64,000 nt of DNA from Bacteroidota bacterium (GCA_029781865.1 JAKOVW010000032.1:1-64000), one strand, 5' to 3'. Positions 30,982 through 53,161 are shown, numbered from the stretch's first letter. The notes: generated from the letters alone by a model not told the origin. Numbers and translations: made by a program.

Positions 30982-33900
30982 CTACCAATACTCAAGACTT
31001 GCGCCAGCCTTTGCAGTTATTGAATAATTATTCCCATTCTCACTTGCAAATCGAATTTGCACCGTTCCATTTGCGGATGGTTTAATTACTCCTTCAATTA
31101 TAGCCACATTCCCAGCAACTATCGAAGTGGAATTACACGATGAAGGTATATTAATGGCACTTGCAAAATTTACCGTTTGAGAAGTTGCATTAAGTGTATA
31201 TCTGCTTGTGTAATTTAAAAGAGATGTTGCAGGAGCATTGATTGTCCAACGACTACCATTTGAAGTTGCCGTACTTGTATATGGGATAATGGCGTAAAAA
31301 TGATAAACAGTACCAGCAACTACATTAAATGCCAAACCTGTTACATCCGTTAAAGTGTTAGCCGTTGAATTGCTAGTGACATCTGCATTTGTAGTAATTA
31401 AATTGCGATAACCACTTCCACTTGAAGGAGCAGCGAACGTACCATCAGCTCTCAAAAAAGTTGAAGTTCCACCACCACTTGCAGGCACTAGCCCTTGAGC
31501 GGAGGCTGTAAACGTATTTAACATTGCGGTGGCTTGTGCTGTAGTCAAATCTTCCACATTTCCAGTACCGGCTGAAGTTCTTCCTTTAAATGTTTGCGAA
31601 GATGTTTGCGCCAACATTGAATTCGCAACTACATTAGGTGATATTGATGTTGCATTACCAACAGAAGTAACAGGTCCTGTTAAATTTGCATTCGTTGTCA
31701 CCGTAGCGGCATTACCTGTTGTATTCTGGTTTAAAATTGGAAAGTCACTAGCTGTTGCAATGCTTAAAGCCCCGGTTCCGGTTGTTGATTTCAGGATCCC
31801 AGATGCAAGTGATGATGTTCCAGGACAGTAATCAATGCCTGCAGCTGCTGTGGTCAGAGCGCCGGCATTACCTTTAAGAACACCGGAAGCTGAAGTGGTT
31901 AATGTAATGGATGGAGTCGTTGATGGGTTCGCTACAGATCCGGTAAATCCATTTGCAGATACTACTGATAAATTAGTTACAGTACCACCAGTAGTTGCCG
32001 CATTAAGTGTATTTCCTGTAAAAGACAAACCTGTTCCTAAAGCAATTTCACTAACTGCGTTACCCGTCAAACCTGATCCTAATAACTTATTTGGAGTCAT
32101 AGACTGCATTTTACTGTAAGTAACTGCATTGGGTGAAATTGTTGCAGTAACACTTCCAGGACCATTTGCAGTAATATCACCTGTAATTGCCGTTATGTAA
32201 TTTCCCGATGGCTGCTTACTATTAAATGTATTCCAATCAGATGAACTCAGGTAACCATTTACTGTACTTGCCGCTTGAGGGATTGAAAATACACCTGTTG
32301 AAGTGTTATACAATAATGGAGACACAGCAGAGTGCGACGCTCGTGCTCTTGTGTCCGTATAATATTTATTCAAAGCCCCTTCACTGATATTATCAGAAGT
32401 GAGGACTACTGCGCCTGTTTGTGCGTTCACCGATGTTACTGCCGAAGAACTTGGATTGCGTTGCCAAACTGTGCCATTATATATAGCATCATCTCCAATG
32501 GCAAAAGTTATATTTCCAGAACCTAAATTGACAGTACCTGCTACCGTAACCCGATACGTCCATCCTGCGGTACCGGTGCCATCAGCTAAAGTTGGTGTAT
32601 TGGTAGATGCATTCCATGTGCCTTTATAGATTTGAGCTCCAACCGGCAATTGAGAGCTTGGCACTTTACCACCAGCATCCAAAGTAGCGACTCCATTATT
32701 TGCCCCTTTTTCTGATGTACTAATTTTAAGATCCAATGCAGCTTGAGTCAGTGTACTAATTGGTTTAGCAATATCGCTTGTATTGTCTACGTTTCCCAGG
32801 CCAACATCTGATTTTAGTATACCCAACGGTGTAACAAGAGTTGGAGAAATAGACCGCACAACATTTCCCGTTCCTGTTGTTGCTATTTCTTCGATAACAC
32901 CAGATCCGGTTGAAGTTCGCCCAAGTACTTTATTAGAGGCTGAAACATTCTGAATTTTTGAATAACTCACGGCTTGATTTGCAATAGTTGTAGCAAAACT
33001 TCCGGTACCACTTCCACTCACATCACCTGTCAGGGCAATCGTTTGATCACCAGTATTTGCACCAGATAAATTCAACATTGATTTCACCTGAGCAATTGTT
33101 AAGTCCTCAATATTTCCTGTACCGGAACTTATCCGGCCTTTAAAAGTTTGAGTAGCTACCTGGGATTGCATTGCATTAGTTAAAACATTATTGGAAATAG
33201 ATGTAGCATTTCCAACAGAGGTGACAGGACCCGTAAGGTTAGCGTTTGTTGTCACCGTTGAAGCATTTCCGTTTAAAGATCCATTAAACGTTGTTGCGGA
33301 AATGGTCCCAGCAGAAAAATTTCCGGAAGCATCCCGGGCAACTATTGTTGATGCTGTATTTGCAGAGGTAGCCGTTGTTGCATTATTTGGGATATTGGTA
33401 AGCAAAGCCCCAGATCCACTAAACAAAACTGAAGCGAGTGTACCGTTAGATGGATTAAATGTTAGCTTGGTACTTGATGTTTTTAAACCTTGAGAGCCAG
33501 TGCCCGCTGCCCATACAATTCGCTCGGATGCATTAGCCGTATTGTCATCAGTAATCGTACTGTTTGTGGCCGTGGTTGCTGTTGTTGCATTGCCAGTTGT
33601 ATTCTGATTTAATATTGGAAAATCAGCAGCTGTAGCGATGGATAAATCACCGGTAACTGTTTTTGATTTTAAAATACCCGTTCCCAGAAGTGCAGTTCCT
33701 TCAGAATAATCTACACCTGGTGTCGCTGCTGAGAAAGCATTTCCATCGCCAAGTACAAGTCCAATTACATCTGTGGTCAATGTAATATCTGGCGTAGTAG
33801 TTGGATTTGTCACAGTACCGCCCAATCCATTTAAGGATTCAATAGTCACTGAAGTAACTGTCCCACCTGAACTCTGAGGTTCAGCCCATGTGCCATCTGC

Positions 33901-34932
33901 CCTGAGAAAATTGGTAACACCGCCACCACTTGAAGGAGCCAATCCTTTTAAGGTCGGAGTAAACGTATTGAGCATAGCCGTTGCCTGTGTAGCAGTTAAA
34001 TCATTTGGAGCGGCCATACTTCCAGAATTGTTTCCTTTAAAAGAATTTGCAGCCATGTTTGCCAGTTTCGCATTAGTCACAACACCATTGGATATCGTAC
34101 TGGCATTCCCAATACTCGTAACATCTCCTGTTAAATTAGCATTCGTTGTAACTGTTGCAGCATTACCTGTAGTATTTTGATTTAAAATTGGAAAGTCACT
34201 AGCTGTTGCAATGCTTAAAGCACCTGAACCGGTTGTTGATTTGAGAATTCCTGTACCCAACGTTGATGTTCCGGAAGTATAATCAATACCTGGATTTGCG
34301 ATGGATAATGCTCCTGTCCCTCCCGATGTCTTTATAAGACCATTGGTTGTTAGATTAGAAAGTGTATTAATATTTTGAGTTGTATTAACTGATATCGTGT
34401 TTGCATTCCTCGTTAAACCGGTTGAAAAACTCAATGCATTCTCCTTGTTATTAAATGTATTCCAATCCAGCGAATTAAGTGCTCCCCGATTTGTGGAAGA
34501 TGCATCCGGCAAATTGAATGTATGTACTGAACCTGTAGAAGTAATCGTAAAATTTGTACCGGTATTACTCGTTGTAAATGATTGAACAGAACCAGTTAGT
34601 CCATTTAATGTAGTAATGCTATTTCCGGAAAGCAGGTTCGAAAGTAACCGAACAGCAACATTACCTGAATCATCCGTTGTCATTATCTTGGTATTTACTG
34701 TGTTTAATCCAATACCAGATAACCTTACGGTGCCCGTAGTATGTAATTGGGCTGAAGGATTTGAAGTTCCAATACCTACTTTTCCCGAATTTTTATTGTA
34801 TATGTTATTGCCTGATGATTTCCATTTACTACTATCGATCAACGTCAGTGTTCCTTTAGGACCAATGACCGTTTGCGCATGGATCTCAGCAAGAGCAAAA
34901 ATTAAAAAGAGAATTAAGTAACTATTTTTCAT
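30982..34932 (-). CDS. large secreted repetitive phage tail-fibre-like / beta-strand-repeat protein
   Basis: signal peptide MKNSYLILFLIFALAEIHAQ; VGIGTSNPSAQLHTTG; repeated GILKSTTGTGALSIATASDFPILNQNTTGNAATVTTNANLTGPVTSVGNATSIS; SVNAQTGAVVLTSDNISEGALNKYYTDTRARAS. Confidence 0.85.
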   Translation of the reverse strand: MKNSYLILFLIFALAEIHAQTVIGPKGTLTLIDSSKWKSSGNNIYNKNSGKVGIGTSNPSAQLHTTGTVRLSGIGLNTVNTKIMTTDDSGNVAVRLLSNLLSGNSITTLNGLTGSVQSFTTSNTGTNFTITSTGSVHTFNLPDASSTNRGALNSLDWNTFNNKENALSFSTGLTRNANTISVNTTQNINTLSNLTTNGLIKTSGGTGALSIANPGIDYTSGTSTLGTGILKSTTGSGALSIATASDFPILNQNTTGNAATVTTNANLTGDVTSIGNASTISNGVVTNAKLANMAANSFKGNNSGSMAAPNDLTATQATAMLNTFTPTLKGLAPSSGGGVTNFLRADGTWAEPQSSGGTVTSVTIESLNGLGGTVTNPTTTPDITLTTDVIGLVLGDGNAFSAATPGVDYSEGTALLGTGILKSKTVTGDLSIATAADFPILNQNTTGNATTATTATNSTITDDNTANASERIVWAAGTGSQGLKTSSTKLTFNPSNGTLASVLFSGSGALLTNIPNNATTATSANTASTIVARDASGNFSAGTISATTFNGSLNGNASTVTTNANLTGPVTSVGNATSISNNVLTNAMQSQVATQTFKGRISSGTGNIEDLTIAQVKSMLNLSGANTGDQTIALTGDVSGSGTGSFATTIANQAVSYSKIQNVSASNKVLGRTSTGSGVIEEIATTGTGNVVRSISPTLVTPLGILKSDVGLGNVDNTSDIAKPISTLTQAALDLKISTSEKGANNGVATLDAGGKVPSSQLPVGAQIYKGTWNASTNTPTLADGTGTAGWTYRVTVAGTVNLGSGNITFAIGDDAIYNGTVWQRNPSSSAVTSVNAQTGAVVLTSDNISEGALNKYYTDTRARASHSAVSPLLYNTSTGVFSIPQAASTVNGYLSSSDWNTFNSKQPSGNYITAITGDITANGPGSVTATISPNAVTYSKMQSMTPNKLLGSGLTGNAVSEIALGTGLSFTGNTLNAATTGGTVTNLSVVSANGFTGSVANPSTTPSITLTTSASGVLKGNAGALTTAAAGIDYCPGTSSLASGILKSTTGTGALSIATASDFPILNQNTTGNAATVTTNANLTGPVTSVGNATSISPNVVANSMLAQTSSQTFKGRTSAGTGNVEDLTTAQATAMLNTFTASAQGLVPASGGGTSTFLRADGTFAAPSSGSGYRNLITTNADVTSNSTANTLTDVTGLAFNVVAGTVYHFYAIIPYTSTATSNGSRWTINAPATSLLNYTSRYTLNATSQTVNFASAINIPSSCNSTSIVAGNVAIIEGVIKPSANGTVQIRFASENGNNYSITAKAGASLEYW
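31610..34290. repeat. internal direct repeats of the tail-fibre-like gene (copies near 31610-31840, 33170-33270 plus 33585-33725, and 34070-34290)
   Basis: near-identical stretches such as ATTGGAAAGTCACTAGCTGTTGCAATGCTTAAAGC at about 31736 and about 34187, and a diverged copy at about 33617. Confidence 0.8.
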
Positions 34933-35059
34933 TCCGGGTGATTTGTACCTTCAGAAAACTTACACCCCTTAAGTAATTGTAATAACTAAAGAGTATAAGT
35001 CTTCTGAATATACTTGGTAAATATTAATATTAAATTTAGTCTCGGTGTTTTAAATTTGA

Positions 35060-35950
35060 TTATTTAACCCATTGTACTTCAATTGTATCTCCGGATACAA
35101 CCAAAGAAGCCATTGTGGAAGACAACGTACAAGTTCCTGCTGAAGTGGTATAATCTGTGCCGGTTACTAATTTAGCTCCATTACGAAATACCCAAACTTT
35201 AGAAACTGTTGCAGGCATATTCGGAACAACATATGTTTGCTGTCCATTGGATGCGTCAAAGCTGGTATCCCCGCTTTGCAATAGGGCCTCTGCTGTTACT
35301 CTTTTCAGCGTACCATCAGGTGATGCTACGACTAAACTATCTGAATTTAAATTGCCACTTTGCAAACCCGTGATCTTTAATGTATTTGTTGCATCGGTTC
35401 CAATCGTTGTGGATTCTGACAAACTTCCACCCAGCTTAACCGTATTGCCTGTCTTCGTCAAACCATTTGTAAATGTAAGCGCTTTCACAAGTGATTCTGC
35501 TGAAATAATCTTCAGTTGTCCTGTAGTTGGATTCACTACCATAACACTATCCGTAGAACCCGATCCACGTTCCAATCCAGTAATAGCGAGGAAATTTTCT
35601 GCACTTGTCACAATCGTGGTTGGTCTGTTCAATGTGCCGCCCAATTCCAATTTCTGGCCATTCTTTGTCAACCCATTTCCTGCACCGTTAATATAAGTAG
35701 ACAACATTGACGCAGTATCCTGATATTTTACATAGTTATTCAGGGAATCATGCAATTGCGTTGGAGTCACAAACAAAATAGTACTGTCTGCTTTTGTAAT
35801 CACAGCAGTCGCACTGTCGAGCACCCACCTGATGGTTCCCTTGTTGTCAATGACTTTGGTACTCACTTTGTCACGGTTTGTGATCTTTTGCGCATTCAGC
35901 GTCGAGCTGATAGTAACAGCTAAAATTGAGAATAATAGAATCTTTTTCAT
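35060..35950 (-). CDS. secreted hypothetical protein with tail-fibre-like C-terminal module
   Basis: signal peptide; repeated NGLTKNGQKLELGGTLNRPTTI / NGLTKTGNTVKLGGSLSESTTI; C-terminus VWVFRNGAKLVTGTDYTTSAGTCTLSSTMASLVVSGDTIEVQWVK. Confidence 0.8.
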   Translation of the reverse strand: MKKILLFSILAVTISSTLNAQKITNRDKVSTKVIDNKGTIRWVLDSATAVITKADSTILFVTPTQLHDSLNNYVKYQDTASMLSTYINGAGNGLTKNGQKLELGGTLNRPTTIVTSAENFLAITGLERGSGSTDSVMVVNPTTGQLKIISAESLVKALTFTNGLTKTGNTVKLGGSLSESTTIGTDATNTLKITGLQSGNLNSDSLVVASPDGTLKRVTAEALLQSGDTSFDASNGQQTYVVPNMPATVSKVWVFRNGAKLVTGTDYTTSAGTCTLSSTMASLVVSGDTIEVQWVK

Positions 35951-35987
35951 TTTTAAATTTTTTTGTAATTGTTTAATTGATTTTAAA

Positions 35988-36803
35988 TTATTTTAATTGA
36001 AATATTTTTATTTCATCTCCGGCCGCACATGGAATTTCGGACAGAATAGAATTCGCATTATTGATTGTGAATGAAATGGATACTCCATTTCGATATAAAA
36101 GTATTTTATTGATATCCGTAATGACAAAGGGTGTATTAAATATAGCCTGACCTGTTGCAGTAACAATTTCAGTTCTTTTTTCCATACCCATTAAAAAGCT
36201 TGCAGACGAAACGACTTTAATTTTTCCATCACTTGAATTGGAAACCAATACATTATCGGTAGCCAGGTCACCTTTAGTTAAGCTATCAATTATTAATTGC
36301 CCTTTTATTTCCAATGCTGCAGATGGAGATGAAGTGCCAATGCCTATCCAACCCTTTTCCGTGATGCGCATGCGCTCTGTATTATTTGTTTTAAAAAGCA
36401 ATGGCGCATTGTCTGTGGTACCTAAAAAGCCATTTATTGAACTTGTACTACTGTTCCCATTAATATTCCAGGATCCTGTTGAAGAATTTGATGAATTTAC
36501 TTTGATCCACTTAGAACCATCACAGTAATAAATACCCGGTGTAACATCATTAATAAAAGCTGTATTATAGACAAACATACCTTGTACAAAATCACTTAAT
36601 GGAGTTGCAACTGTGGTTGAACTTAAAGCAAGCCTTGGCAAAAGCAATCCTTTATTTGAAGATTCTATTTCCAAAACCGCGTTTGGATTAAGTGATTTTG
36701 GATTATTTCCCAATTTAATTTGCGCGTTTAGTTTTGAAATATTACAAAACACAAGTCCTGCTATCATGAATAAAATGTACTTATATGAATATTTATACTT
36801 CAC
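35988..36803 (-). CDS. secreted hypothetical protein with tail-fibre-like modules
   Basis: signal peptide; NPNAVLEIESSNKGLLLPRLALSSTT; APLLFKTNNTERMRITEKGWIGIGTSSPSAALEI; C-terminus ILLYRNGVSISFTINNANSILSEIPCAAGDEIKIFQLK. Confidence 0.8.
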   Translation of the reverse strand: MKYKYSYKYILFMIAGLVFCNISKLNAQIKLGNNPKSLNPNAVLEIESSNKGLLLPRLALSSTTVATPLSDFVQGMFVYNTAFINDVTPGIYYCDGSKWIKVNSSNSSTGSWNINGNSSTSSINGFLGTTDNAPLLFKTNNTERMRITEKGWIGIGTSSPSAALEIKGQLIIDSLTKGDLATDNVLVSNSSDGKIKVVSSASFLMGMEKRTEIVTATGQAIFNTPFVITDINKILLYRNGVSISFTINNANSILSEIPCAAGDEIKIFQLK

Positions 36804-38549: not shown

Positions 38550-39077
38550 TTGTTGATAGAAGAAATATATAATACCCATAAAAATCTCGTTTTTAATCTT
38601 GCTCTGCAGTACGTGCAGAATCAGGAAGATGCTGAAGAAATTACACAGGATGTGTTTATTGCCATATATAAATCCATACATGATTTTAATGCCAACTCTA
38701 AAATGTCTACCTGGATTTACCGTATTACCATCAATAAGTCCCTTGATTACATCAAAGCCAGAAAAAGACAGAAACGGTCCGGTTTAATTGTGTCTTTTTT
38801 CTTTGAAGGCAGCAATGAAATCAAACATGACCTGCCGGTCTTTAATCATCCCGGTGTAGAGCTGGAGCAGAAAGAAGCCCTTTCCCAATTGTTTCAATTG
38901 ATCAATGAATTACCCGACAATCAGAAAACCGCTTTAATTTTAAGCAAGATAGAACAGAAACCACAGGCCGAAATCGCTGAAATAATGAATTTAAATATCA
39001 AAGCTGTCGAATCCTTAATCCAACGGGCTAAATCAGGATTATTGAAAAAATTAAATGATCGCGAAGGAATTTCCTAG
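38550..39077 (+). CDS. ECF RNA polymerase sigma factor (TTG start in the given ORF)
   Basis: YVQNQEDAEEITQDVFIAIYKSIHDFNANSKMSTWIYRITINKSLDYIKARKR; LPDNQKTALILSKIEQKPQAEIAEIMNLNIKAVESLIQRAKSGLLKKL. Confidence 0.96.
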   Translation: MLIEEIYNTHKNLVFNLALQYVQNQEDAEEITQDVFIAIYKSIHDFNANSKMSTWIYRITINKSLDYIKARKRQKRSGLIVSFFFEGSNEIKHDLPVFNHPGVELEQKEALSQLFQLINELPDNQKTALILSKIEQKPQAEIAEIMNLNIKAVESLIQRAKSGLLKKLNDREGIS

Positions 39078-39101
39078 AATCATCGTCTTATTCAAATTGA
39101 T

Positions 39102-39371
39102 ATGTACAAAAGAAACGACCCATTTGAACAACTATCCCAAATCAAAAAAGTGGATGCTCCGCCTTTTTTATTTACCCGGATTCAACAAAAGATCGATGAA
39201 CTCCAAACACAGCGGTTTTCATTTCGACTTTCCTGGTCACTCGGTCTGTCCTTTGCCTTAGTCGTATTACTTGACCTGAGTGTGTTCATCAAAGAAAAAC
39301 ATGAATTGAACCAAAAATCAACTCTAGCTCAATCCTTAAATTTAATGCCCGATAACACACTTTACAAATGA
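39102..39371 (+). CDS. small single-TM putative anti-sigma factor
   Basis: 89 aa, NDPFEQLSQIKKVDAPPFLFTRIQQKIDEL then TM LSWSLGLSFALVVLLDLSVFI; position immediately after the ECF gene. Confidence 0.75.
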   Translation: MYKRNDPFEQLSQIKKVDAPPFLFTRIQQKIDELQTQRFSFRLSWSLGLSFALVVLLDLSVFIKEKHELNQKSTLAQSLNLMPDNTLYK

Positions 39372-39826
39372 ATAAAGTACGCTTTTTAACGATCGCAACG
39401 CTGATATTGCTGCTAACCAATCTCGCCCTGGTATCTTTACTGTTATTCAGACGACCTCCACATCCAAAAGAAGAAGGCCCTAAAAATCTGATTATTGAAA
39501 AACTGAACCTGGATCAAAATCAGACACGGGATTATGAAAAACTCATTCAATGGCACAGAAGTGAAATCAGGAATTCAGAAGATGAAATTTTAATGTTGAA
39601 AAATCGACTTTACAGTGGCCTGGCCACCGACACTGATTCCGTGCAGAAGGATTCTCTGATTAACGAATTAGCAAAAGTCCAGACAAAAATTGAAAATATC
39701 CATTATAAACATTTTCAGGATATTAAAACGCTTTGCCACGCAGATCAGAAAAAAGCATTTGAATCTCTCACACGGGAGATAGCAGGTCTTTTTAACCGGA
39801 CTCCAGAAAGAAGAGATCGAAAATGA
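39368..39826 (+). CDS. Spy/CpxP/CnrX-like periplasmic metal-sensor-type protein
   Basis: N-terminal TM anchor; helical LNLDQNQTRDYEKLIQWHRSEIRNSEDEI...IHYKHFQDIKTLCHADQKKAFESL; ATGA overlaps with both neighbours. Confidence 0.75.
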   Translation: MNKVRFLTIATLILLLTNLALVSLLLFRRPPHPKEEGPKNLIIEKLNLDQNQTRDYEKLIQWHRSEIRNSEDEILMLKNRLYSGLATDTDSVQKDSLINELAKVQTKIENIHYKHFQDIKTLCHADQKKAFESLTREIAGLFNRTPERRDRK

Positions 39827-40515
39827 AAATCTGCTTTTTACTTTTATCCGTGATCTGTTTTTTCAACTTTAATCAATTGCACTCGCAATTATTAAAAAAG
39901 CAAGCACTTTTATTTAAACCTGTATTCGGAAATTCGCCTCTTTATGTCGATAGCTTATTTTATTCTATCAACGACAAGGATAGCATTCAGTTTCTGACAT
40001 TGAAATGGTATATTTCAGGTATCGAACTTTTCAACGACAGCAAAAGCATTTGGAAAGAAGATAATAGTTTTCATTTATTGAATGCAGGAGATCCTGGTAC
40101 TTTACACATGGACCTGACCATTCCGACTAACTTCACATTCAATCAAATCAGATTCAACCTGGGCATTGACAGCATAACCAATGTTTCCGGAGCATTGGGT
40201 GGAGATCTGGATCCTACCAAAGGAATGTATTGGACCTGGCAAAGCGGATATATCAACTTTAAAGCAGAAGGAAAAAGCAACTTATGTCAAACGAGAAATA
40301 ACGAATTTCAATTTCACCTGGGAGGTTACCAGGCTCCATTTAATACTTTGCAAACTATCACGGTAACCATTCATCCGGATCAACCGATAAACATTTATAT
40401 TGACCTGAAACTTTGGCTGTCCAATATTGACTTGCACCAGCTCAACCATATCATGTCTCCTGGATCTGATGCCGCGAGACTCAGCAATCAATTATTACGT
40501 TGTTTCAGAGCCTGA
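39823..40515 (+). CDS. MbnP-like family protein (copper-binding MbnP homolog)
   Basis: KPVFGNSPLYVDS, ISGIELF, LLNAGDPGTLHMDLTIPTNFTFNQIRFNLGIDSITNVSGALGGDLDPTKGMYWTWQSGYINFKAEG. Confidence 0.85.
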   Translation: MKICFLLLSVICFFNFNQLHSQLLKKQALLFKPVFGNSPLYVDSLFYSINDKDSIQFLTLKWYISGIELFNDSKSIWKEDNSFHLLNAGDPGTLHMDLTIPTNFTFNQIRFNLGIDSITNVSGALGGDLDPTKGMYWTWQSGYINFKAEGKSNLCQTRNNEFQFHLGGYQAPFNTLQTITVTIHPDQPINIYIDLKLWLSNIDLHQLNHIMSPGSDAARLSNQLLRCFRA

Positions 40516-40520
40516 CCACC

Positions 40521-41539
40521 ATGAGAAAAAGACTATTGGTACTGACCATGGTAAGCGTTTCAACAGCATTCACCCTTTTTGATGATATTCATTTTCAAAT
40601 TCCAAAACATTGGCCAAAGCCATTTTATTCATTCCAGAATAATCCATTGAGTTACGATAAAATTGAATTAGGCAGAGCTTTGTTTTACGATCCAACAATA
40701 CCATTTCCTGTACCAGCTGTCATTCTCAATACAATGCTTTTGCACATATCGACCATGCATTAAGTCATGGGATTGATAATAAAACCGGAACCCGAAATGC
40801 ACCGGCTCTTATGAATCTGGCATGGAGTCGCTCATTTATGTGGGATGGTGCGATTAATCATCTCGACATGCAATCTCTCTTCCCGATTACCCATCCAAAT
40901 GAAATGAATGAAAGCCTGGATCATGTTGTATCCAAATTACAGTCATCAAACGTATATCCTTCTCTCTATTACAAGGCTTTTGGTGACAGCATGATTACCG
41001 GTGAGCGCACATTAAAGAGCCTGAGCCAATTCATGCTGACTCTTGTCAGTGCAAATTCAAAATACGACAGTGTAATGCGAAACGAAACACAGTTTAACGA
41101 ACAACAAAGGCGAGGATATAAATTATTTAAAACTAATTGTGCTTCCTGTCATACAGAACCGTTATTCACTAACGCTCAATTTGAAAATAATGGATTACCT
41201 CTGGATAGCACGTTGAATGATTTTGGAAGGATGAATGTTACACATAATCCATCCGATTCGCTAAAGTTCAAAGTACCCACATTGAGAAATATTGAATTTT
41301 CATTTCCCTACATGCACGATGGCAGGTTTAAGCGATTGTCTGAGGTTATTACCCATTATACCCTTGGCATTCAACAAAGCAATACACTTTCCAAACAATT
41401 ACGAAAGCCAATATTATTGAGTTCCAATGAAAAAGTAGATCTCATCGCTTTTTTGCTCACTTTATCAGATAGAACATTTCTATTCAATCCGAAATATTCT
41501 TATCCAAGATCTATTTATTTTCCTGAAACGAAGGACTAA
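40521..41539 (+). pseudogene. MbnH-like di-heme cytochrome c peroxidase, frameshifted into 40500..40763 and 40811..41539
   Basis: FYDP in frame 0; CTSCHSQYNAFAHIDHALSHGIDNKTGTRNAPALMNLAWS continues in the other frame from 40709; second heme CASCHTEPLFTN; LRNIEFSFPYMHDGRF. Confidence 0.8.
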
Positions 41540-41582
41540 CTAACAAATGTCGTCTAAACCTCAAATCATTAATTAACTGATT

Positions 41583-43322
41583 ATGCATTCATTCAAACTT
41601 ACATTGCAAATTCTGACTGTTTTATCATTTGGTTTAGCACTCGTAACCACCAAAAGTATCGGTCAATACAATTTGCTTCGAATACCCGATACGTTGTCCG
41701 GCACCCATTTCAACCTGACTATTAAAGATACATTTGCACAAATCGTAAATACCGGAAATCAAACAATAACCGGAGGCATAAATGGCAATTTTTGGGGACC
41801 TACTTTATTCTTAAAAAAGGGAGAGGTGGTTTATATGAATGTAAAAAATAATCTAAACGATTCGACTACGATTCACTGGCATGGAATGCATCTGCCGGCT
41901 GTAATGGATGGAGGTCCACACCAAATTATACCTCCTGGCACGCTCTGGCAACCTTATTGGAAAGTAACCAATAACGCTGCAACCTATTGGTATCATCCCC
42001 ATTTGGATATGATGACTGAAGAACAGATTACGAAAGGGATTGGTGGCTTAATCATTGTAAGAGACAGTATTGAATCTGCTTTACCTCTGCCTCGAACGTA
42101 TGGAATTGACGATATTCCATTGGTACTTACGGACAGAGATTTCAATTCGTCCAACCAATTTGTAACAGTACCTTATGGAGACAGTATGTTAGTAAATGGT
42201 ACTTTGCGTCCGCAATACTCCATTCCCGGACAAGTGGTTCGTTTCCGAATTTTAGATGGTGCCATAGAGCGTTCTTACAATCTGGGCTTTAGCGACAACA
42301 GGACATTTTACGTGATTACTTCAGATGGTGGGTTATTAAACGCTCCTGTTGGCGTAACCCGTTATTTAATACATGCCGGCGAACGTATCGAAATTTTAGT
42401 CAATTGTACAGGACAGGCCGGATCAACAGTTGATTTAAGAGCATTCAATTCTACTCTATCCAATTTTATAGCTGGCGGAGAAAATTTCGTAAACGGCCCT
42501 TTTGGAAACGCATTAGGCAAAAAAGATTTCAATATTTTACATTTGAATATAAATTCCGCCACAAATAATCCTATTAATACTATTCCTGCAACATTAACCA
42601 ATAATATTTTATTAAATTCTTCAGATGCCAAAATTACGAGGCACCTTACTATTAGTGATAGTGCCGGTGTTCCAGGTATTTTAGGACCAAATGCATTTAT
42701 CCTAAATCATAAGCTCTTCAAATTCGATTTTAATGATTATGAGGTTCCTCTGGGCAATACCGAAATTTGGGAAATTACGAGTTCTTCCATATTCGGTCAT
42801 CCATTTCATATTCACGATGTACAATTCAATATTATTTCGGTTAATGGAGCGGCTCCTGCCGCTGCACAGGCAGGTTGGAAAGATGTAGTTTTTATTCCAG
42901 GCAAAGCCGGTCCAAATAATACCGTTGTTAAATTTATTGCCAAGTTTGAAGATTATGCTGATAAAATTCATCCATTTATGTATCACTGCCATATTGCACT
43001 TCATGAAGATGAAGGAATGATGGGACAATTTGTGGTAACAGGCACAACGACTCAAACTAATTATTCACAATCCTATTTAAACGAATTTTCAATCTATCCC
43101 AATCCATCCAAAAATAAATTATTTATTTCTTTTACAGATCCGGACAATACAGTGTATTATGTAAAAATAAACAACGCACTTGGCAAAACCATGTATATGC
43201 TACCCCGACCTCAAACAGAAAATGGAATCGACATACATTACTTATCTCCTGGAATTTATTCTATACAATTAACAGATGAAAAAACAAAGTCCATTACAAC
43301 TAAATTCTTTATTAAAGAATAA
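41583..43322 (+). CDS. multicopper oxidase with T9SS sorting domain
   Basis: IHWHGMHLPAVMDGGPHQ, YWYHPHLDMM, HPFHIHDVQF, YHCHIALHEDEGMMGQF; C-terminus IYPNPSKNKLFISF...GIYSIQLTDEKT. Confidence 0.95.
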   Translation: MHSFKLTLQILTVLSFGLALVTTKSIGQYNLLRIPDTLSGTHFNLTIKDTFAQIVNTGNQTITGGINGNFWGPTLFLKKGEVVYMNVKNNLNDSTTIHWHGMHLPAVMDGGPHQIIPPGTLWQPYWKVTNNAATYWYHPHLDMMTEEQITKGIGGLIIVRDSIESALPLPRTYGIDDIPLVLTDRDFNSSNQFVTVPYGDSMLVNGTLRPQYSIPGQVVRFRILDGAIERSYNLGFSDNRTFYVITSDGGLLNAPVGVTRYLIHAGERIEILVNCTGQAGSTVDLRAFNSTLSNFIAGGENFVNGPFGNALGKKDFNILHLNINSATNNPINTIPATLTNNILLNSSDAKITRHLTISDSAGVPGILGPNAFILNHKLFKFDFNDYEVPLGNTEIWEITSSSIFGHPFHIHDVQFNIISVNGAAPAAAQAGWKDVVFIPGKAGPNNTVVKFIAKFEDYADKIHPFMYHCHIALHEDEGMMGQFVVTGTTTQTNYSQSYLNEFSIYPNPSKNKLFISFTDPDNTVYYVKINNALGKTMYMLPRPQTENGIDIHYLSPGIYSIQLTDEKTKSITTKFFIKE

Positions 43323-43343
43323 CCTTAGCCGCTTTAAAGAATC

Positions 43344-43955
43344 ATGAAATACATTAATTACAATTTCATTTTTTCAAACTTAATTCTGCTTTTTTCCCTA
43401 TTTAAGTGGAGCTTTCATCCCATTGAAGACGCGGTAGTACCCGATTTCAACTTGTTAAATACAACCGGCAAATTCGTGTCGTTAAAAGACTATCCGGATG
43501 CAAAGGGATTCATTATTGTCTTTACCTGCAACCATTGTCCATTTGCCAAATTGTACCCATCCAGACTAAATTCTTTAAATAAGAAATATACAGCATTAAA
43601 CGTCCCCCTTATTGCGATCAGTTCAACAGACACAACGCAATACGAAGATGATAGCTATGCGAAAATGATTGAAAAAGCAACTACCGAAAAGTTCAATTTT
43701 CCTTATCTTTATGATGGTAATCAAAATGTTGCAAAAAGCTATAACGCTCAAAAGACGCCGCATGCCTTTATAATTTGGAAGAATAAAGGACAATGGGTGG
43801 TCAAATACAATGGAGCCATAGACGACAATGGCGCGGAACCTGAAAAAGTTCAACAACACTATGTAGCAGATGCCGTTGACGCATTATTAAGCAGGAAACC
43901 GATTAAGACTAAAGAAACGAAATCCATTGGTTGTCAAATTCACTTTAGGAAATAA
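43344..43955 (+). CDS. thioredoxin-like / AhpC-TSA redoxin family protein
   Basis: VPDFNLLNTTGKFVSLKDYPDAKGFIIVFTCNHCPFAKLYPSRL; KTPHAFIIW. Confidence 0.9.
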   Translation: MKYINYNFIFSNLILLFSLFKWSFHPIEDAVVPDFNLLNTTGKFVSLKDYPDAKGFIIVFTCNHCPFAKLYPSRLNSLNKKYTALNVPLIAISSTDTTQYEDDSYAKMIEKATTEKFNFPYLYDGNQNVAKSYNAQKTPHAFIIWKNKGQWVVKYNGAIDDNGAEPEKVQQHYVADAVDALLSRKPIKTKETKSIGCQIHFRK

Positions 43956-43964
43956 TCAGAATTT

Positions 43965-45557
43965 ATGAAAATGATATTTTGCCTTTGCTTTTTATTTAGC
44001 GGATTTCTAAATATTCGCGCACAGCACAATGTCATTTTGATTATCGCCGATGATGTTGGAACGGATTACTTTGGCTTTTATGAAGACGGTAAAGACACAG
44101 TAGATGTGCCCAATATCAGAACATTAGTAAACAAAGGTGTGCGTTTTAAAAATGCTATGGCTAATCCGGTTTGCTCCTCAACAAGGGCAGGCATTTTGAC
44201 AGGAAGATATAGTTTCCGAACAGGTGTTGGTGGAATTGTAGGCGGGGCCGGTGGATCAAATCCTCTAGATACTTCAGAAATTACGATTCCGCGATTATTA
44301 AATAAATACAATCCAAACATTGCGAAAGCAAATATTGGCAAATGGCATTTACAACAAGGAATGCCCATTGGAAATTTAAAATTTCCTAATGTAATGGGCT
44401 ATGATCATTATGAAGGTTCATTTATTGGACAACTTCCCAGTTATACAAATTGGACAAAAATTACTAACGGGGTTTCCGCCACCACAACAAATTATGCTAC
44501 ATCAGAAAATGTTGACAATGCGGTATCCTGGATAAAAACACAAACGAATAAACCCGTTTTTTTATGGCTGGCATTTAACGCACCACATGAGCCGATTCAT
44601 TTGCCCCCTGCAAATCTTTTACATTCCTATAAATCGCTTAGCGGTACTCCTGGCGATATCAATGCACATCCAAAAGAATATTTCAAAGCAATGATTCAAT
44701 CATTGGATCAGGAAATCGGCCGACTCTTTGATTCACTTAAAGTTTTAAACAGATACGATAGTACTGATTTTATATTTATTGGCGACAATGGGAACACGAC
44801 CCGCACCGCTCAAATTACCAATACGGATCGCGCAAAGGGAACCATCTACCAATATGGAGTTCACGTGCCATTCATTATTGCAGGACCTTCTGTGATAAAA
44901 CCAGGAAGAGCAACAGATGCATTGGTAAACACCACAGATTTATTTGCTACGGTCCTCGATTTATTTGGCCAAAAAAACTGGTCATCATTCATACCAGCAA
45001 ACAAAACAGTCGATAGCAAAAGTATTTTGCCCATCCTTAAAAATGTAAGCTCCGATATTCGCCCATGGTCATTTTGTGAAATTTTTAAATTAACCACAGA
45101 TTCAGCAGATGGTAAAGCCATTCGAAATATGGACTATAAACTTTTAAGATTTGATGATGGAAGACAGGAGTTTTATAACTTAAAAAAAGACTCGCTGGAA
45201 GAAATCGATTTATTACAACAGTCACTAACGGCTGAGGAGGCGACCAACTATTATTATCTGTGTAATGAATTGAGTAATTTAATTGGAAAAGGCAATTATT
45301 GTAAACAAATTACGGGTATTCACAATACAGCTAAACCAACGCAAGATTATGTGATTTTCCCCAATCCGTTTACTTCCAATATACACATTGAAGATCATAA
45401 TAAAGAAGAGGCTTTTGTTTTATTAAATGCAATGGGACAGGTTATTTTCTCTGGTACGCAAATTGAATTACAGGATTTTTCGAGTTTGCCAAAAGGACTT
45501 TATGTATTGAAAAAAAACAATTACCCTGAACGAGTTTTAAAGCTAATCAAAGAATAA
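43965..45557 (+). CDS. sulfatase-family (alkaline phosphatase superfamily) protein with T9SS sorting domain, active-site motif CSSTR
   Basis: NVILIIADDVGTDYFGFY; NPVCSSTRAGILTGRYSFRTGVG; FIFIGDNGN; C-terminus VIFPNPFTSNIHIED...KGLYVLKKNN. Confidence 0.93.
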   Translation: MKMIFCLCFLFSGFLNIRAQHNVILIIADDVGTDYFGFYEDGKDTVDVPNIRTLVNKGVRFKNAMANPVCSSTRAGILTGRYSFRTGVGGIVGGAGGSNPLDTSEITIPRLLNKYNPNIAKANIGKWHLQQGMPIGNLKFPNVMGYDHYEGSFIGQLPSYTNWTKITNGVSATTTNYATSENVDNAVSWIKTQTNKPVFLWLAFNAPHEPIHLPPANLLHSYKSLSGTPGDINAHPKEYFKAMIQSLDQEIGRLFDSLKVLNRYDSTDFIFIGDNGNTTRTAQITNTDRAKGTIYQYGVHVPFIIAGPSVIKPGRATDALVNTTDLFATVLDLFGQKNWSSFIPANKTVDSKSILPILKNVSSDIRPWSFCEIFKLTTDSADGKAIRNMDYKLLRFDDGRQEFYNLKKDSLEEIDLLQQSLTAEEATNYYYLCNELSNLIGKGNYCKQITGIHNTAKPTQDYVIFPNPFTSNIHIEDHNKEEAFVLLNAMGQVIFSGTQIELQDFSSLPKGLYVLKKNNYPERVLKLIKE

Positions 45558-45621
45558 AATTTCATACCTCCTAAATGAATAAAATAAATATTTTAAACCA
45601 ATCATTTGAATATCGACCAAT

Positions 45622-46983
45622 ATGAAAACTTTAATTAACTTATTCACATTTTTACTTACTGGCTTCTTAATGAATGCTCAATTGAATCCGGCAATTACAT
45701 CATGGATTCAAAATACCACCAATATTATGGGTCGCCATTATGTAAAAGGTAATTCTACGCCTATTAATGACAATGTTTTGGCTAATGTGCAGTCCGTAAA
45801 ATACTCTGCAACATCAGTCTATATTGCAACAAACGGCATACCGGCATATATAACAGGTCCATTCCTGGATGGCAATCCGTCCATCGCAACCAGCCAGAAT
45901 GCTATTTTTAAAGTAAGTTTAGATCCTATAAAAAATACAGGAACGCCAACCAATACCACCGGTGGAAATATCGGCTTGTTTATTAATGGTGTTGCTTTAT
46001 TTGATTATCGCGATGGGGTATCCTGGCAAAATTCCTCCAACTCACTAAAGGGTGGACCTCTTGGCGGTATGGGAGACATGGTATGGAACAGAGATGCCGT
46101 AGTTGCAGAGCGAATTGGTTTTGATTGTTCGAAAGCACACCCGGCTATGGGTAATTATCACCATCACCAAAATCCCAGCGCCTTTAAATTAGACCTGAAT
46201 ATCATTTCAAATGTTTGCAATTTATATGATTCCGACGGATTATATGCGATTGATAGTACCAGGCACTCTCCATTGATCGGATTTGCCTATGACGGCTTTC
46301 CGATATATGGTGCTTATGCATATAAAAATACAGATGGCACCGGTGGTATCGTGCGGATGAAATCCAGCTACCGACTTCGGAATATCACCAAACGCACCCA
46401 GTATGCAAATGGCTCAACTGTGACGCCAGGACCTGATGTCAGCACGACGTATCCACTTGGTTATTTCAGAGAAGACTATGAATATGTAGCAACATCTTCT
46501 TCTACTCCGGATTTACTGGATGAGCACAATGGTCGATTTTGTGTAACTCCAGAATATCCAAACGGTATCTACTGCTATTTTGCAACCGTTGATTCCAAAT
46601 GGAATTCTGCTTATCCTTATGTCGTTGGCCCAACATTTTACGGCACGCGCACTGCTGTAAAAGTGACTTCCATTAATGAACCTGTAACGACTTATCTACC
46701 CAACCCAACGGCTACACAGCAATCCAATTCTCTAGAACAGGATGTTACTATTTTTCCAAACCCCGCCAATGATCTTATTGCGATTCAATTGAATCACATT
46801 ACAAGAGAAAATGTGGAAGTGAGTCTGTGTAACATAACGGGACAAGTCATCTCTAAAACGATATTGTACCAGGGTAGCACCATTGTGTTTTTTGATACCA
46901 GAACCGTATACGAAGGAACTTACTTCATCCACTTTTCAGATTCACACAGTTCATTCACAAAAAAAGTAGCAATATCAAAATAA
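45622..46983 (+). CDS. YHYH domain-containing protein with T9SS sorting domain
   Basis: AHPAMGNYHHHQNP, HSPLIGFAYDGFPIYGAYAY, LDEHNGRFCVTPEYPNGIYCYFAT; IFPNPANDLIAIQL. Confidence 0.88.
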   Translation: MKTLINLFTFLLTGFLMNAQLNPAITSWIQNTTNIMGRHYVKGNSTPINDNVLANVQSVKYSATSVYIATNGIPAYITGPFLDGNPSIATSQNAIFKVSLDPIKNTGTPTNTTGGNIGLFINGVALFDYRDGVSWQNSSNSLKGGPLGGMGDMVWNRDAVVAERIGFDCSKAHPAMGNYHHHQNPSAFKLDLNIISNVCNLYDSDGLYAIDSTRHSPLIGFAYDGFPIYGAYAYKNTDGTGGIVRMKSSYRLRNITKRTQYANGSTVTPGPDVSTTYPLGYFREDYEYVATSSSTPDLLDEHNGRFCVTPEYPNGIYCYFATVDSKWNSAYPYVVGPTFYGTRTAVKVTSINEPVTTYLPNPTATQQSNSLEQDVTIFPNPANDLIAIQLNHITRENVEVSLCNITGQVISKTILYQGSTIVFFDTRTVYEGTYFIHFSDSHSSFTKKVAISK

Positions 46984-47477: not shown

Positions 47478-49532
47478 ATGACCAGAAAATTTCAAGTAAT
47501 GGCAAGCCTTAGTTGCTTAATTGCTTTATTCAATTTGAATGATTTGACGGCACAACAAATGAAAATCATTGCCTCTCTGCCCAGGGATAAATCATTTGTA
47601 TTCTTACCCAGAGGACCAATTAAACCCGCTCCGAACGGAATTCATAACACATACAGAAGTTTGGATGGCACCAACAACAACATTGCGCCACAAAGAGGTG
47701 AATGGGGTGCCACTGAGATTGCCTTGTTTAGAGAACTGCCCGCGGAATATGGTAGCATAGATACAAAAAATGCCATTGGTGGCGCAAACAGGCCTTCCCC
47801 CAGAAAAATTTCAAATGCATTGAGCGACGAGCCTGTAACTCAATTTAACGCGAGAAATTTAAGTGCATTTGTTTACGTGTGGGGGCAATTCCTCGATCAC
47901 GATATTACGTTAACTCCAACCGGCAACACAGAATATGCGCCCATTCCATTGCCTGTTGATGAACCATTATTTACGGCAGCCATACCCTTCTACAGAAGTG
48001 AAGTGTTTTCTTCCAGCGGAATCAATAATCCCAGACAGCAAACCAATTTAAACACAGCATGGATCGATGGTTCAGTGGTATATGGATCTGACGAAACTCG
48101 TGCGAAATGGCTAAGGACATTCCGCGACGGTAAATTGAAAACATCCAAAGACAATTTTTTACCATGGAATACTTTAAATGGTGAATATGGTGAAGCCATT
48201 GATCCGAACGCACCAAGCATGGCAGACGATGCAAATCATACTGTCAAAACATTTGTAGCAGGTGATATCCGTGCAAATGAACATCCTGGCATTACCAGCC
48301 TGCATATTCTGTTTGTAAGAGAACACAACCGCATTTGCGACCGATACATTTCGCAAGGATTAAAAAATGATGAAGAGATTTATCAAAAAGCCAGAAAGGA
48401 GGTTGGAGCACTCATACAAGCGATTACGTACCAGGAGTTCTTACCTGCACTAGGAGTAACATTGAATACCTATTCCAGTTACAAGGATAATGTCAGACCC
48501 GACATCATGAATACATTTGCAACTGCGGGATACCGCATTGGGCACACGATGGTAGCAGATGAAATTGCTTTGCGCGACAATAATTGTAACAAAGCGGGTC
48601 CCGGCTCACTGGAACTTTTAGATGTATTTTTTAATCCTCAATTAGTTGTGAATTACAGTCCTGAACTATTTTTAAAAGGGTTCTCAACACATAAGCAATA
48701 TGAGACAGATCTTAAAATCAATAGCGTCCTGCGTAATTACCTTTTTGGTTCACCAACCAATCCGGTGCGTTTTGGATTAGATCTCGCTGCAATTAACATT
48801 CAACGTGGAAGAGATCACGGCTTACCCAATTACAATGCCGTCAGAGCTTTATATCTCGGCAATCCGATTGCCAACTTTTCCCAGATCACCAGCGATGCAG
48901 CAAAAGCGGCTACATTACAAAATCTGTATGGTAATGTGAACAATATTGATCTATGGGTCGGAATCCTGGCAGAAGATCGCTTACCCGGCAAATCTGTCGG
49001 AAGGACTATGCATGCCATGCTCAAATCACAATTTGAAAAACTCAGAGACGGTGATTATTATTTCTATAAATATGATCCATTCCTCCCCCAAAATCTAAAG
49101 ACACAAATGGCGAATACCAAATTATCAGATATTATTAAAAGAAATACAACACTCACCAATTTACAAAGCAATGTGTTTTTTATAGATCCTTGTCCAGGTG
49201 AAACAGGTGAGGACGACTCCATGGGATCTGTTTCTAAAAATCTGAATAACAGTATGATTAGGGAACGAGATAAAACTTCTCGTGAATTTAATCTGCAAAT
49301 TTATCCCAATCCGGTAAATGACAGATTACTTATTGAGCTAAATACTTCTTCTGAATCTGTTCTTTTACAATTATTTTCAGCAAATGGTGCTCTCATTGCT
49401 AATATTCCTGTAAAAACTGATGATCATCTTTTAGAGGTTAAAACCTCAGATTACAAATCAGGACTATACCTTATGCGCATTTCGGATGGAATCCATGTAG
49501 AAACCGTTAAATTTATAATTGAACATGAATAA
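47478..49532 (+). CDS. animal-type (peroxidasin-like) heme peroxidase with T9SS sorting domain
   Basis: RPSPRKISNAL, YVWGQFLDHDITLT, NTAWIDGSVVYGSDE, GDIRANEHPGITSLHILFVREHNRICDRY, FGLDLAAINIQRGRDHGLPNYN. Confidence 0.95.
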   Translation: MTRKFQVMASLSCLIALFNLNDLTAQQMKIIASLPRDKSFVFLPRGPIKPAPNGIHNTYRSLDGTNNNIAPQRGEWGATEIALFRELPAEYGSIDTKNAIGGANRPSPRKISNALSDEPVTQFNARNLSAFVYVWGQFLDHDITLTPTGNTEYAPIPLPVDEPLFTAAIPFYRSEVFSSSGINNPRQQTNLNTAWIDGSVVYGSDETRAKWLRTFRDGKLKTSKDNFLPWNTLNGEYGEAIDPNAPSMADDANHTVKTFVAGDIRANEHPGITSLHILFVREHNRICDRYISQGLKNDEEIYQKARKEVGALIQAITYQEFLPALGVTLNTYSSYKDNVRPDIMNTFATAGYRIGHTMVADEIALRDNNCNKAGPGSLELLDVFFNPQLVVNYSPELFLKGFSTHKQYETDLKINSVLRNYLFGSPTNPVRFGLDLAAINIQRGRDHGLPNYNAVRALYLGNPIANFSQITSDAAKAATLQNLYGNVNNIDLWVGILAEDRLPGKSVGRTMHAMLKSQFEKLRDGDYYFYKYDPFLPQNLKTQMANTKLSDIIKRNTTLTNLQSNVFFIDPCPGETGEDDSMGSVSKNLNNSMIRERDKTSREFNLQIYPNPVNDRLLIELNTSSESVLLQLFSANGALIANIPVKTDDHLLEVKTSDYKSGLYLMRISDGIHVETVKFIIEHE

Positions 49533-49573
49533 CTAAAAAGTATAGATCAATCTTAATTATTCAGCTCTAACAG

Positions 49574-49604
49574 AGGTCTTTTCATTGATTGAAAAGACCT
49601 TTTT
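49574..49604 (+). terminator. strong intrinsic terminator after the peroxidase gene
   Basis: perfect 11-bp stem AGGTCTTTTCA-TTGAT-TGAAAAGACCT followed by a T tract. Confidence 0.82.
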
Positions 49605-49733
49605 CAATTTAAATTTATGCCTATAAAATTAAACCAAAATCAAAAAATTAAGTCTAACCGCTTGGAATGGACTTTACTTAAAATCCGGCAACCTGACCAA
49701 TCCTGATAAAAACGTAAATAGCTTAATGGAAAC

Positions 49734-50228
49734 ATGCAAAATCGTCGTCTAAACCATATGCGTTATCCTGATAAGAAAATGAGATTTTGCGATAAAACTC
49801 CTTTTATTGTTCTAATAACTTGTTATTCAGGCATTATTCAATCCCAGTACAATTCCCTATGGATTCCCGATACCCTATCCGGGACAAAATTTAATTTAAC
49901 CCTTAAAGACACGTTTGCCCAGTTCCGGTCCGGAAATCAAACCATTACTGCCGGAATAAACCAAACTAAATTCTGGGGATCTACCTTGTTTTTTAACAAA
50001 GGAGACACTATTTATATGACTGTAAAAAATGAACTGAATGATTCTACTACCTTACACTGGCATGGCACGCATTTACCCGCAGTAATGGATGGAGGACCTC
50101 ATCAGGTTATTCTTCCAGGTACTATTTGGCAACCTTATTGGAAAGTTACGAATAATGCTGCAACCTAATGGTATCATCCTCATTTGCATAATATGACCAT
50201 GAAACATTCAGTCAATAGCTTTTCTTAA
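49734..50228 (+). pseudogene. truncated multicopper oxidase paralog (only the first cupredoxin region remains)
   Basis: WIPDTLSGTKFNLTLKDTFAQ...LHWHGTHLPAVMDGGPHQ...PYWKVTNNAAT* (TAA at 50166-50168) then in-frame WYHPHLHNMTMKHSVNSFS*. Confidence 0.88.
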
Positions 50229-50247
50229 TATACTTAAAATCATATTT

Positions 50248-51861
50248 ATGAAAAAAAGTTTAGTTTCCATTTTATTTCTCTGCTGCCATTTTCTTTTTGC
50301 TCACAATGCTAATTATAATCATTTAATCCTAAGACATTGGACCCTTGCACATGAACACAAAACGGTAGAAGGTTCATTCTACATGTTAAAAAATGGAGAA
50401 CTTTATATTGAAGACGCAAATCTATCCATCATTCACTTCCCCCTTTCGTCGTTCTCTATAGAAGACCAGAATTATGCACAAAAAAGAAATGAATGGATAA
50501 TGGAAATAAATGATTCTCAAATATCAACTCGTACTAACCAGTCAGAAATTTTACCTATTTCAGATTATAAATTCTGGAGCTCTTTACTTTTACTGACTTT
50601 ATTATCCGTTTACACATTCACCACTAGGGAAAAAAGAAAATTAAACTATTTAATTCCGTTTCTAAGTATTGGAGTGCTTGCCTTCTTATTTGGTTTCACC
50701 TACACAACCATGGCTCCACAAATTCCAAATACAAATCCATTATTTATTGATTCGGCTTTTATTCCATTTAAACCTAATGTTTATACCCGATGGGATTCCA
50801 AATATTTTTATGTAGAATCACACGGCATTCCAACCACGCATGCAATGATGTCAGGCATTACGAGCTGGCAACAGCAAGTCCCCATTCCACAATGTTATAC
50901 CGGCAATAATCCATGGAGTATTCCATTAAATCCGGAAATAGCAAGCACTCCTGTTCCCGTAAACCCGCAACATTTCCTAAGAGGTGCAGTCGCCATTGCT
51001 GTAAATGGAATTGCCATTTTTAATCCGTATACCAATACCGGGGTTGATGCATTAGTAGATGGACAGCTGGACAACTGGGGAGGACATTGCGGAAGAGCTG
51101 ATGATTATCATTATCACATTGCCCCATTGCATTTATATGGTTACACCTTAAATACATTACCAATTGCATTTGCACTGGATGGATTTGCGGTCTATGGAAG
51201 TTTTGAACCTGAAGGCTCCTCAATGAAGCCTTTGGATAGTAATCATGGCCATTTTGGCACCAATGGTGTTTATCATTATCATGGCACTACTGCCAAACCC
51301 TATATGATTGGAAATATGGTTGGAAAGGTTACTGAAGACACTACCTTGCAAATTGTACCGCAGGCCTCTGCAAAACCAATAAGACCCGCCGGAACGCCTT
51401 TGAAAGGAGCAACAATTGTGGATTGCATTCCAAACGGGACTAATAATGGCTATACGTTAAACTACACACTAAACGGACAAAAATATGCAGTTGATTACAC
51501 CTGGACCCCTTCAGGTAAATATACTTTCAACTTTATTTCTCCGACAGGAACCACTACTTCCACATACAATGGCTTTGCACAATGCTCCCTGCCTACATCA
51601 ACAGAAGAAAAAAATATACTTTCTGACCAAATAATAATTTATCCTAATCCGAATCACAATATTTTACATATTTCGCTAAGTGATCCCATTCGCGAAAATG
51701 ATGTAAAAGAAATTTTAATATTTAATCTAATGGGAAATCTGACCTATAAAATGGACCGTTTCAAACCTGATATTGACATCAGCAATATGAAACCAGGAAC
51801 TTATATTGTACAAATGAATTTGACCCAAAACCAAATTAGTAAAAAACTGATTATACATTGA
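50248..51861 (+). CDS. YHYH domain-containing protein with two N-terminal-half TM helices and a T9SS sorting domain
   Basis: DDYHYHIAPLHLYG, FALDGFAVYGSF, NGVYHYHGTTAKPY; TM FWSSLLLLTLLSVYTFTT and YLIPFLSIGVLAFLFGFTYTT; IYPNPNHNILHISL. Confidence 0.88.
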   Translation: MKKSLVSILFLCCHFLFAHNANYNHLILRHWTLAHEHKTVEGSFYMLKNGELYIEDANLSIIHFPLSSFSIEDQNYAQKRNEWIMEINDSQISTRTNQSEILPISDYKFWSSLLLLTLLSVYTFTTREKRKLNYLIPFLSIGVLAFLFGFTYTTMAPQIPNTNPLFIDSAFIPFKPNVYTRWDSKYFYVESHGIPTTHAMMSGITSWQQQVPIPQCYTGNNPWSIPLNPEIASTPVPVNPQHFLRGAVAIAVNGIAIFNPYTNTGVDALVDGQLDNWGGHCGRADDYHYHIAPLHLYGYTLNTLPIAFALDGFAVYGSFEPEGSSMKPLDSNHGHFGTNGVYHYHGTTAKPYMIGNMVGKVTEDTTLQIVPQASAKPIRPAGTPLKGATIVDCIPNGTNNGYTLNYTLNGQKYAVDYTWTPSGKYTFNFISPTGTTTSTYNGFAQCSLPTSTEEKNILSDQIIIYPNPNHNILHISLSDPIRENDVKEILIFNLMGNLTYKMDRFKPDIDISNMKPGTYIVQMNLTQNQISKKLIIH

Positions 51862-51876
51862 TTCAAAACCATCGAC

Positions 51877-53118: not shown

Positions 53119-53161
53119 TATTCGCTCTATTTTATACACCGTAATGCAATTTGTAAGAGTT

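Follow-up and report, generated by a model that had tools for sequence, protein, structure and literature searches.

MbnP/MbnH gene pairs outside methanobactin producers have unclear roles (PMC3621798), and a locus in a Bacteroidota bacterium raises the question of what may regulate such a pair, and with which partners. The window analyzed here, a 64,000-nt stretch of Bacteroidota bacterium G000 (4.52-Mb genome, 93 contigs), carries genes for an extracytoplasmic function (ECF) sigma factor, an 89-amino-acid (aa) protein with a single transmembrane segment, a Spy/CnrX-like anchored protein, MbnP and MbnH, followed by a multicopper oxidase (MCO) and a redoxin. The original prediction saw here a Cnr-like three-part switch controlling the MbnP/MbnH pair and a secreted MCO. 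Our best reading, held with slightly better than even confidence, is that a CnrHYX-like switch drives an envelope copper-handling operon, one that extends beyond the redoxin to a YHYH protein.

Conservation of the gene neighbourhood supports this reading. We scanned GTDB contigs with the window MbnP, called open reading frames (ORFs) at the resulting 80 loci and clustered all neighbours without prior families; the loci were picked by MbnP similarity, and the counts therefore refer to MbnP loci rather than to genomes. MbnP (80 loci) is accompanied by MbnH in 76, YHYH in 57, the CnrX-like sensor in 34, the sigma factor in 31 and the candidate anti-sigma factor in 29, followed by the MCO (14), a sulfatase (9) and the redoxin (6), with the next clusters reaching 5; all named members but one share the strand of MbnP. 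At loci with enough flank, MbnH lies downstream of MbnP in 63 of 64 and YHYH in 46 of 64, and the sensor lies upstream in 27 of 66. Where both flanks could be read, YHYH is present at 18 of 19 loci with the sensor and 25 of 33 without it. The core partner is YHYH, which the original prediction had missed, and not the MCO or the redoxin, which it had included and which are present in the window as accessory members.

The unit of sigma factor, anti-sigma candidate, sensor, MbnP, MbnH and YHYH is shared by many genera and occurs, among others, on contigs labelled Kapabacteria and Ignavibacteria, and three loci (L044, L045 and L073) match the window with an MCO and a sulfatase between MbnH and YHYH. 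Synteny beyond one strain, on which the original prediction had staked its case, is thus borne out by a gene order that recurs phylum-wide; this excludes a chance arrangement, and conservation in many genera rejects a strain-specific oddity. Profile searches of 297 evenly sampled Bacteroidota genomes found the MbnP subfamily in 68, YHYH in 34 and the sensor in 137; among the weaker matches are members of other subfamilies and further Spy-like proteins. MbnP and YHYH lie near each other in G000, G405, G210, G397, G242, G413, G225 and G309.

In the window, the predicted ORFs are present in head-to-tail order with 4-nt ATGA overlaps at 39368 and 39823, and the other gaps between sigma and redoxin measure 24, 5, 43 and 21 nt. 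Contrary to what had been proposed, the cluster extends past 43955: the sulfatase gene begins 9 nt beyond, the YHYH gene 64 nt beyond the sulfatase, and a 494-nt gap follows. Judged by this spacing, the operon would reach 46983, with one transcript from 38550 to 46983. Scans for sigma-70 promoters and terminators gave matches at chance level. As the original prediction had stated, no mbnA/B/C-like gene was recognized among the listed ORFs or in Pfam scans of the cluster genes, no dedicated mbnB/C search having been made, and a methanobactin operon was considered but appears unlikely within these bounds.

The three putative switch components were analyzed individually. At 174-175 aa, the sigma factor stops shortly after region 4, and its translation is free of Cys; lacking a Cys-rich C-terminal tail, it is rejected as a CorE-type copper ECF. 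Its gene starts with TTG, and an ATG near the start is missing in 37 of 54 relatives; among sensor genes this applies to 1 of 59. Since 5 of 12 other ECF genes of the window genome likewise lack an ATG start, this is no family-specific feature, and ECF genes in this genome may generally use non-ATG starts. Members of the 89-aa family contain a single hydrophobic segment; the VxAPPFLFTRI block N-terminal to it is conserved in 31 of 31 and the C-terminal LY/FY end in 27 of 31, and the window protein carries a presumably cytoplasmic VDAPPFLFTRI block and a presumably periplasmic NTLYK end. These ends may represent an inner, sigma-binding and an outer, sensor-contacting part, and together with size and transmembrane segment they fit a short anti-sigma factor of the class of CnrY, which wraps its sigma factor with two short helices (PMC4598750, PMC7406223). 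The protein belongs to no Pfam family and matches no PDB chain in sequence, CnrY included. We note that a class I anti-sigma factor is found near only 6% of Bacteroidetes ECFs (PMC7406223).

The sensor scores 0.0057 against Pfam Metal_resist, below the cut-off. Pfam, which supports the sigma factor, MbnP, MauG/CCP, MCO and redoxin assignments of the original prediction, leaves the sensor below cut-off and the 89-aa protein unmatched; the sensor is supported instead by conservation and fold, the 89-aa protein by conservation. The AF2 model of the sensor (pLDDT 93.4) reveals a transmembrane helix followed by a four-helix hairpin, and a Foldseek search of the PDB places CnrX/NccX at 15 of the 17 top ranks, these with probability 1.00 and target TM-scores of 0.60-0.79. 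The predicted Cnr-like switch is supported by these best fold matches, and a plain Spy/CpxP chaperone is rejected since the fold matches CnrX better. H115 is conserved in 54 of 54 sensors and H63 in 53 of 54, with Q52 and Q127 alongside, and C123 is kept in 36 of 38 MbnP-adjacent sensors versus 8 of 16 others. Sigma and sensor distances covary (r 0.87 over 25 loci), in part because both follow the species tree.

Downstream of the switch, MbnP scores 139.7 bits against PF20243 (cut-off 27), and M135, W137, W139 and H165 are invariant in 64 sequences, with WxW kept in 64/64. Its score against TIGR04052 (31.6 bits versus a cut-off of 140) makes it a distant subfamily and not an equivalog, and it matches nothing in the PDB that would serve to place its copper ligands. 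In Methylosinus MbnP, MbnH reportedly converts the first Trp of WxW to kynurenine, with Cu(I) bound near a His and a Met; by analogy, kynurenine may form here as well. The prediction that the MCO is secreted is supported: the enzyme has a type IX secretion system (T9SS) sorting tail, as do the sulfatase and YHYH protein, and all four copper-ligand motifs (HWHG, WYHPH, HPFHIH and HCHxxxHxxxxM). This gene content suggests copper as the signal.

The proposed MbnP/MbnH pair holds with respect to its adjoining genes and the conserved WxW of MbnP, but MbnH is not one ORF. Its N-terminal part (40521-40763) and its C-terminal part (40691-41539), which carries both haem motifs (CxxCH), lie in different frames, separated by a 13-nt deletion near 40692, just 5' of the first CxxCH. 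Where relatives read LFYDP-ILSR-NNTISC, the window DNA reads TTTTACGATCC-AACAATACC, 13 nt fewer between FYDP and NNTISC; at this locus the deletion cuts the N-terminal part off from the haem domains, so that the gene is not an intact one with a signal peptide. The C-terminal part aligns over its full length with 6e1c, presumably Methylosinus MbnH, and is of the MauG type, with two c-haem motifs and a Tyr (in an ITHYTLG segment where 1iqc has TMG) instead of the CCP Met ligand. Elsewhere, MbnH beside MbnP is nearly always full length unless cut by a contig end, with L043 (248 aa) as a clear exception, and it is uninterrupted in G491 (L151) and G490 (L152), the two genomes of the same genus whose operon was read. 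Since the C-terminal part runs without a further stop over 282 codons and the remaining operon genes are open, with conserved motifs, the lesion is either recent or an assembly error. The window genome has probably lost the MbnH step or performs it with a paralogue, and a kynurenine test on this strain could fail trivially because of the frameshift. Three further MbnP genes of another subfamily (C51:136038-138586, C66:102203-104750 and C74:63971-65293) are each adjoined by 1-2 MauG/CCP genes, a possible source of MbnH in trans.

Of all members, YHYH shows the highest conservation (55-72% identity across the phylum) and ranks third in frequency in MbnP loci; it also contains Trp, Tyr and His residues that are invariant. 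To our knowledge, no function has been established for YHYH proteins, and the AF2 model (pLDDT 59.5) is too poor for fold comparison. For phage YHYH domains, a three-His/Asp metal site has been predicted and a tail hydrolase proposed (PMC7824862). A second architecture, in which MbnP/MbnH are absent, combines the sigma factor, small transmembrane protein and CnrX-like sensor with YHYH (another subfamily), MORN_2 and SCO1, a copper chaperone. Sensor, YHYH, MORN_2 protein and SCO1 follow in this order in L157 and L159, homologues lie 3' of the sensor in L173 and L174, and parts occur elsewhere. YHYH and SCO1/SenC are the recurrent neighbours at 20 sensor loci without MbnP, some of which were picked for a nearby YHYH and hence form no random sample; among family-level sensor loci (1.5-kb flanks), 17 of 29 have MbnP/MbnH, YHYH or SCO1. 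SCO1 is common in the phylum (202 of 294 genomes); it directly adjoins YHYH in G350, G284, G448 and G436, and other MbnPs in G403, G210 and G291. The MORN-SCO1 architecture is an independent pointer to copper.

In sum, gene order and its conservation, the predicted sensor fold, invariant residues and the linkage of the switch to MbnP/MbnH, YHYH and SCO1 suggest the following mechanism. At rest, the small transmembrane protein would act as an anti-sigma factor, sequestering the sigma factor through its VxAPPFLFTRI region while its periplasmic end (NxLY) is engaged by the sensor. Metal, presumably copper, binding at the sensor's His pair (H63 and H115, perhaps with C123) would change the sensor's shape and free the sigma factor, which would transcribe its own operon: MbnP, MbnH, the secreted MCO, redoxin, sulfatase and surface YHYH protein. 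MbnH would then oxidize the first Trp of the MbnP WxW to kynurenine, creating a Cu(I) site, and the MCO and YHYH may act on or with copper beyond the outer membrane.

Several points weigh against this reading. It was built from gene order, sequences and structure models. The switch is missing from over half of MbnP loci. The sensor's Foldseek E-values are all above 0.001, and by sequence its profile is nearer Spy (4.9e-05) than NccX (0.55). MbnH looks broken in the window genome, and any copper role of YHYH and the sulfatase is hypothetical. Finally, the search for a promoter motif specific to the sigma factor was negative: dyad counts in the regions preceding 57 sigma genes returned coding-sequence signals only, because many starts are misplaced by non-ATG codons.

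These points leave room for other explanations. The three-part switch might sense another cue, such as Ni/Co/Zn, a thiol/redox signal via C123 or Spy/CpxP-like misfolding, with the copper proteins as effectors of oxidative envelope stress and not of copper homeostasis. Characterized CnrX does sense Co/Ni (PMC4598750), Spy and CpxP are in the same fold class and are sequence relatives of the sensor, the near-invariant C123 of the MbnP-linked sensors would suit a thiol signal, and the operon combines a redoxin with a di-haem peroxidase-family enzyme. However, no czc/cnr-type efflux pump recurs by the sensors, whose partners are instead MbnP/MbnH, YHYH, SCO1 and MCO, and we consider another cue unlikely. 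A bolder alternative would have MbnH modify YHYH too, or instead of MbnP, such that the operon would centre on a MauG-like modification of YHYH as a surface metalloenzyme, with MbnP as its carrier or partner. The exceptional conservation of YHYH, its frequent position downstream of MbnP-MbnH and its invariant Trp, Tyr and His residues would be in line with this. Yet YHYH is also found beside SCO1 without MbnH and therefore cannot generally need it, and the WxW substrate motif is kept by every MbnP; we regard this alternative as highly improbable.

Whatever its role elsewhere, the module might also be decaying in the window genome, being lost and of little function here. In line with the MbnH deletion, a second MCO copy (49734-50168) is interrupted by an in-frame TAG, and the distribution within the genus is patchy, 3 of 8 other same-genus genomes (G145, G044 and G494) having no MbnP relative. 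Against decay, the reading frames remain open in the C-terminal part of MbnH and in the other operon genes, and the genome holds several other di-haem CCP/MauG genes. We view decay as less probable than a functioning locus, though as somewhat likelier than a different cue. The CnrHYX-like copper switch remains our preferred reading. More tentatively, and with less than even confidence, it may represent a Bacteroidota-wide copper-sensing family, in which CnrX-fold sensors and a new short anti-sigma class control YHYH-containing envelope copper modules, with MbnP/MbnH or MORN-SCO1. YHYH would then be a new surface copper family, and the small APPFLFTRI proteins would be part of the missing Bacteroidota anti-sigma factors.

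Table 1. Genes of the proposed operon in the window, with the evidence for each assignment.
Feature	Coordinates	Strand	Evidence
ECF sigma factor, TTG start	38550..39077	+	Sigma70_r2 1.9e-18, r4_2 1.5e-14 (Pfam); adjoins sensor in nearly all sensor loci
89-aa single-transmembrane protein, proposed anti-sigma factor	39102..39371	+	No Pfam or PDB match; 31-member alignment with conserved ends
CnrX-fold periplasmic sensor (predicted), N-terminal transmembrane anchor; H63, H115, C123	39368..39826	+	AF2 model, Foldseek, conserved residues
MbnP; WxW at W137/W139	39823..40515	+	PF20243 1.4e-40; invariant residues in 64 sequences
MbnH (MauG/CCP type), disrupted	40521..41539	+	C-terminal part PF03150 (CCP_MauG) 1.2e-43; aligns over length with 6e1c
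MCO (CueO-like), T9SS tail	41583..43322	+	Cu-oxidase_3/_2 3e-29/1e-21; copper-ligand motifs
Redoxin (AhpC/TSA family), CNHC motif	43344..43955	+	AhpC-TSA 4e-18
Sulfatase, T9SS tail	43965..45557	+	PF00884 9.2e-42
YHYH protein, T9SS tail, proposed last operon gene	45622..46983	+	PF14240 3.7e-59

The downstream region 47478-55971 is a partly duplicated version of the cluster. It contains the second MCO copy, an N-terminal part only that is 77% identical to the MCO at 41583 (stop in NNAAT*WYHPH) and is a remnant of tandem duplication. Its other genes encode an animal-type haem peroxidase, another, distant YHYH protein (50248-51861), an additional sulfatase that shares 59% identity with the one in the operon, a T9SS protein of no known family and an Lcl_C-domain protein. 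Outside the cluster, 60822-61643 holds a formate/nitrite transporter family gene (PF01226, 1.1e-76), and just upstream, the minus strand at 30982-36803 encodes secreted-type proteins that are very long and repetitive, one of 1316 aa and its relatives, in which NTTGNAATVTTNANLTG-like segments recur.

MbnP/MbnH beyond methanobactin (PMC3621798) and CnrHYX are each already known. Their combination and its phylum-wide link to YHYH appear undescribed: we found no description in the searchable literature, beyond whose reach the key MbnP/MbnH papers lie. If our reading is correct, this single operon would offer YHYH a function open to testing, supply MbnP/MbnH with a regulator, define a searchable class of small anti-sigma factors and put a CnrX-type sensor in the context of copper and not of Ni/Co efflux. 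The operon would equip Bacteroidota with dedicated extracellular sensing and handling of copper.

Comparison with known systems places the locus between several of them. As in CnrH/CnrY/CnrX and NccX of Cupriavidus metallidurans, an ECF sigma factor, a short single-transmembrane anti-sigma-like protein and an anchored sensor of the same predicted fold are encoded together. Here, however, the order is sigma, anti-sigma candidate, sensor; Ni/Co efflux genes are absent, the partners being MbnP/MbnH, YHYH, SCO1 and MCO; and by sequence the 89-aa family matches none of the solved chains. The adjoining genes, WxW and MauG-type di-haem enzyme recall the MbnP/MbnH pair (TIGR04052/TIGR04039, GenProp0940; PMC3621798), although the Bacteroidota subfamily scores 31.6/140 and 178/363 bits versus the respective cut-offs, the switch and YHYH are added, no methanobactin genes were recognized and MbnH is frameshifted in the window genome. 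MopE/SACCP and CorA/CorB of methanotrophs likewise pair a surface copper protein bearing a kynurenine site with a neighbouring di-haem enzyme gene (PMC3912023, PMC3621798), but MbnP is not markedly similar to MopE/CorA in sequence, according to the 2013 paper, and no such switch is described there. CorE of Myxococcus xanthus (PMC3107203) is also an ECF sigma factor for a multicopper oxidase in copper homeostasis; whereas CorE itself senses copper via a Cys-rich C-terminal domain, sensing here would fall to a membrane sensor, with a sigma factor that ends after region 4. Lastly, the window YHYH protein matches PF14240, but while a tail hydrolase is proposed for the phage members (PMC7824862), the proteins here are T9SS-tailed surface proteins tied to copper genes.

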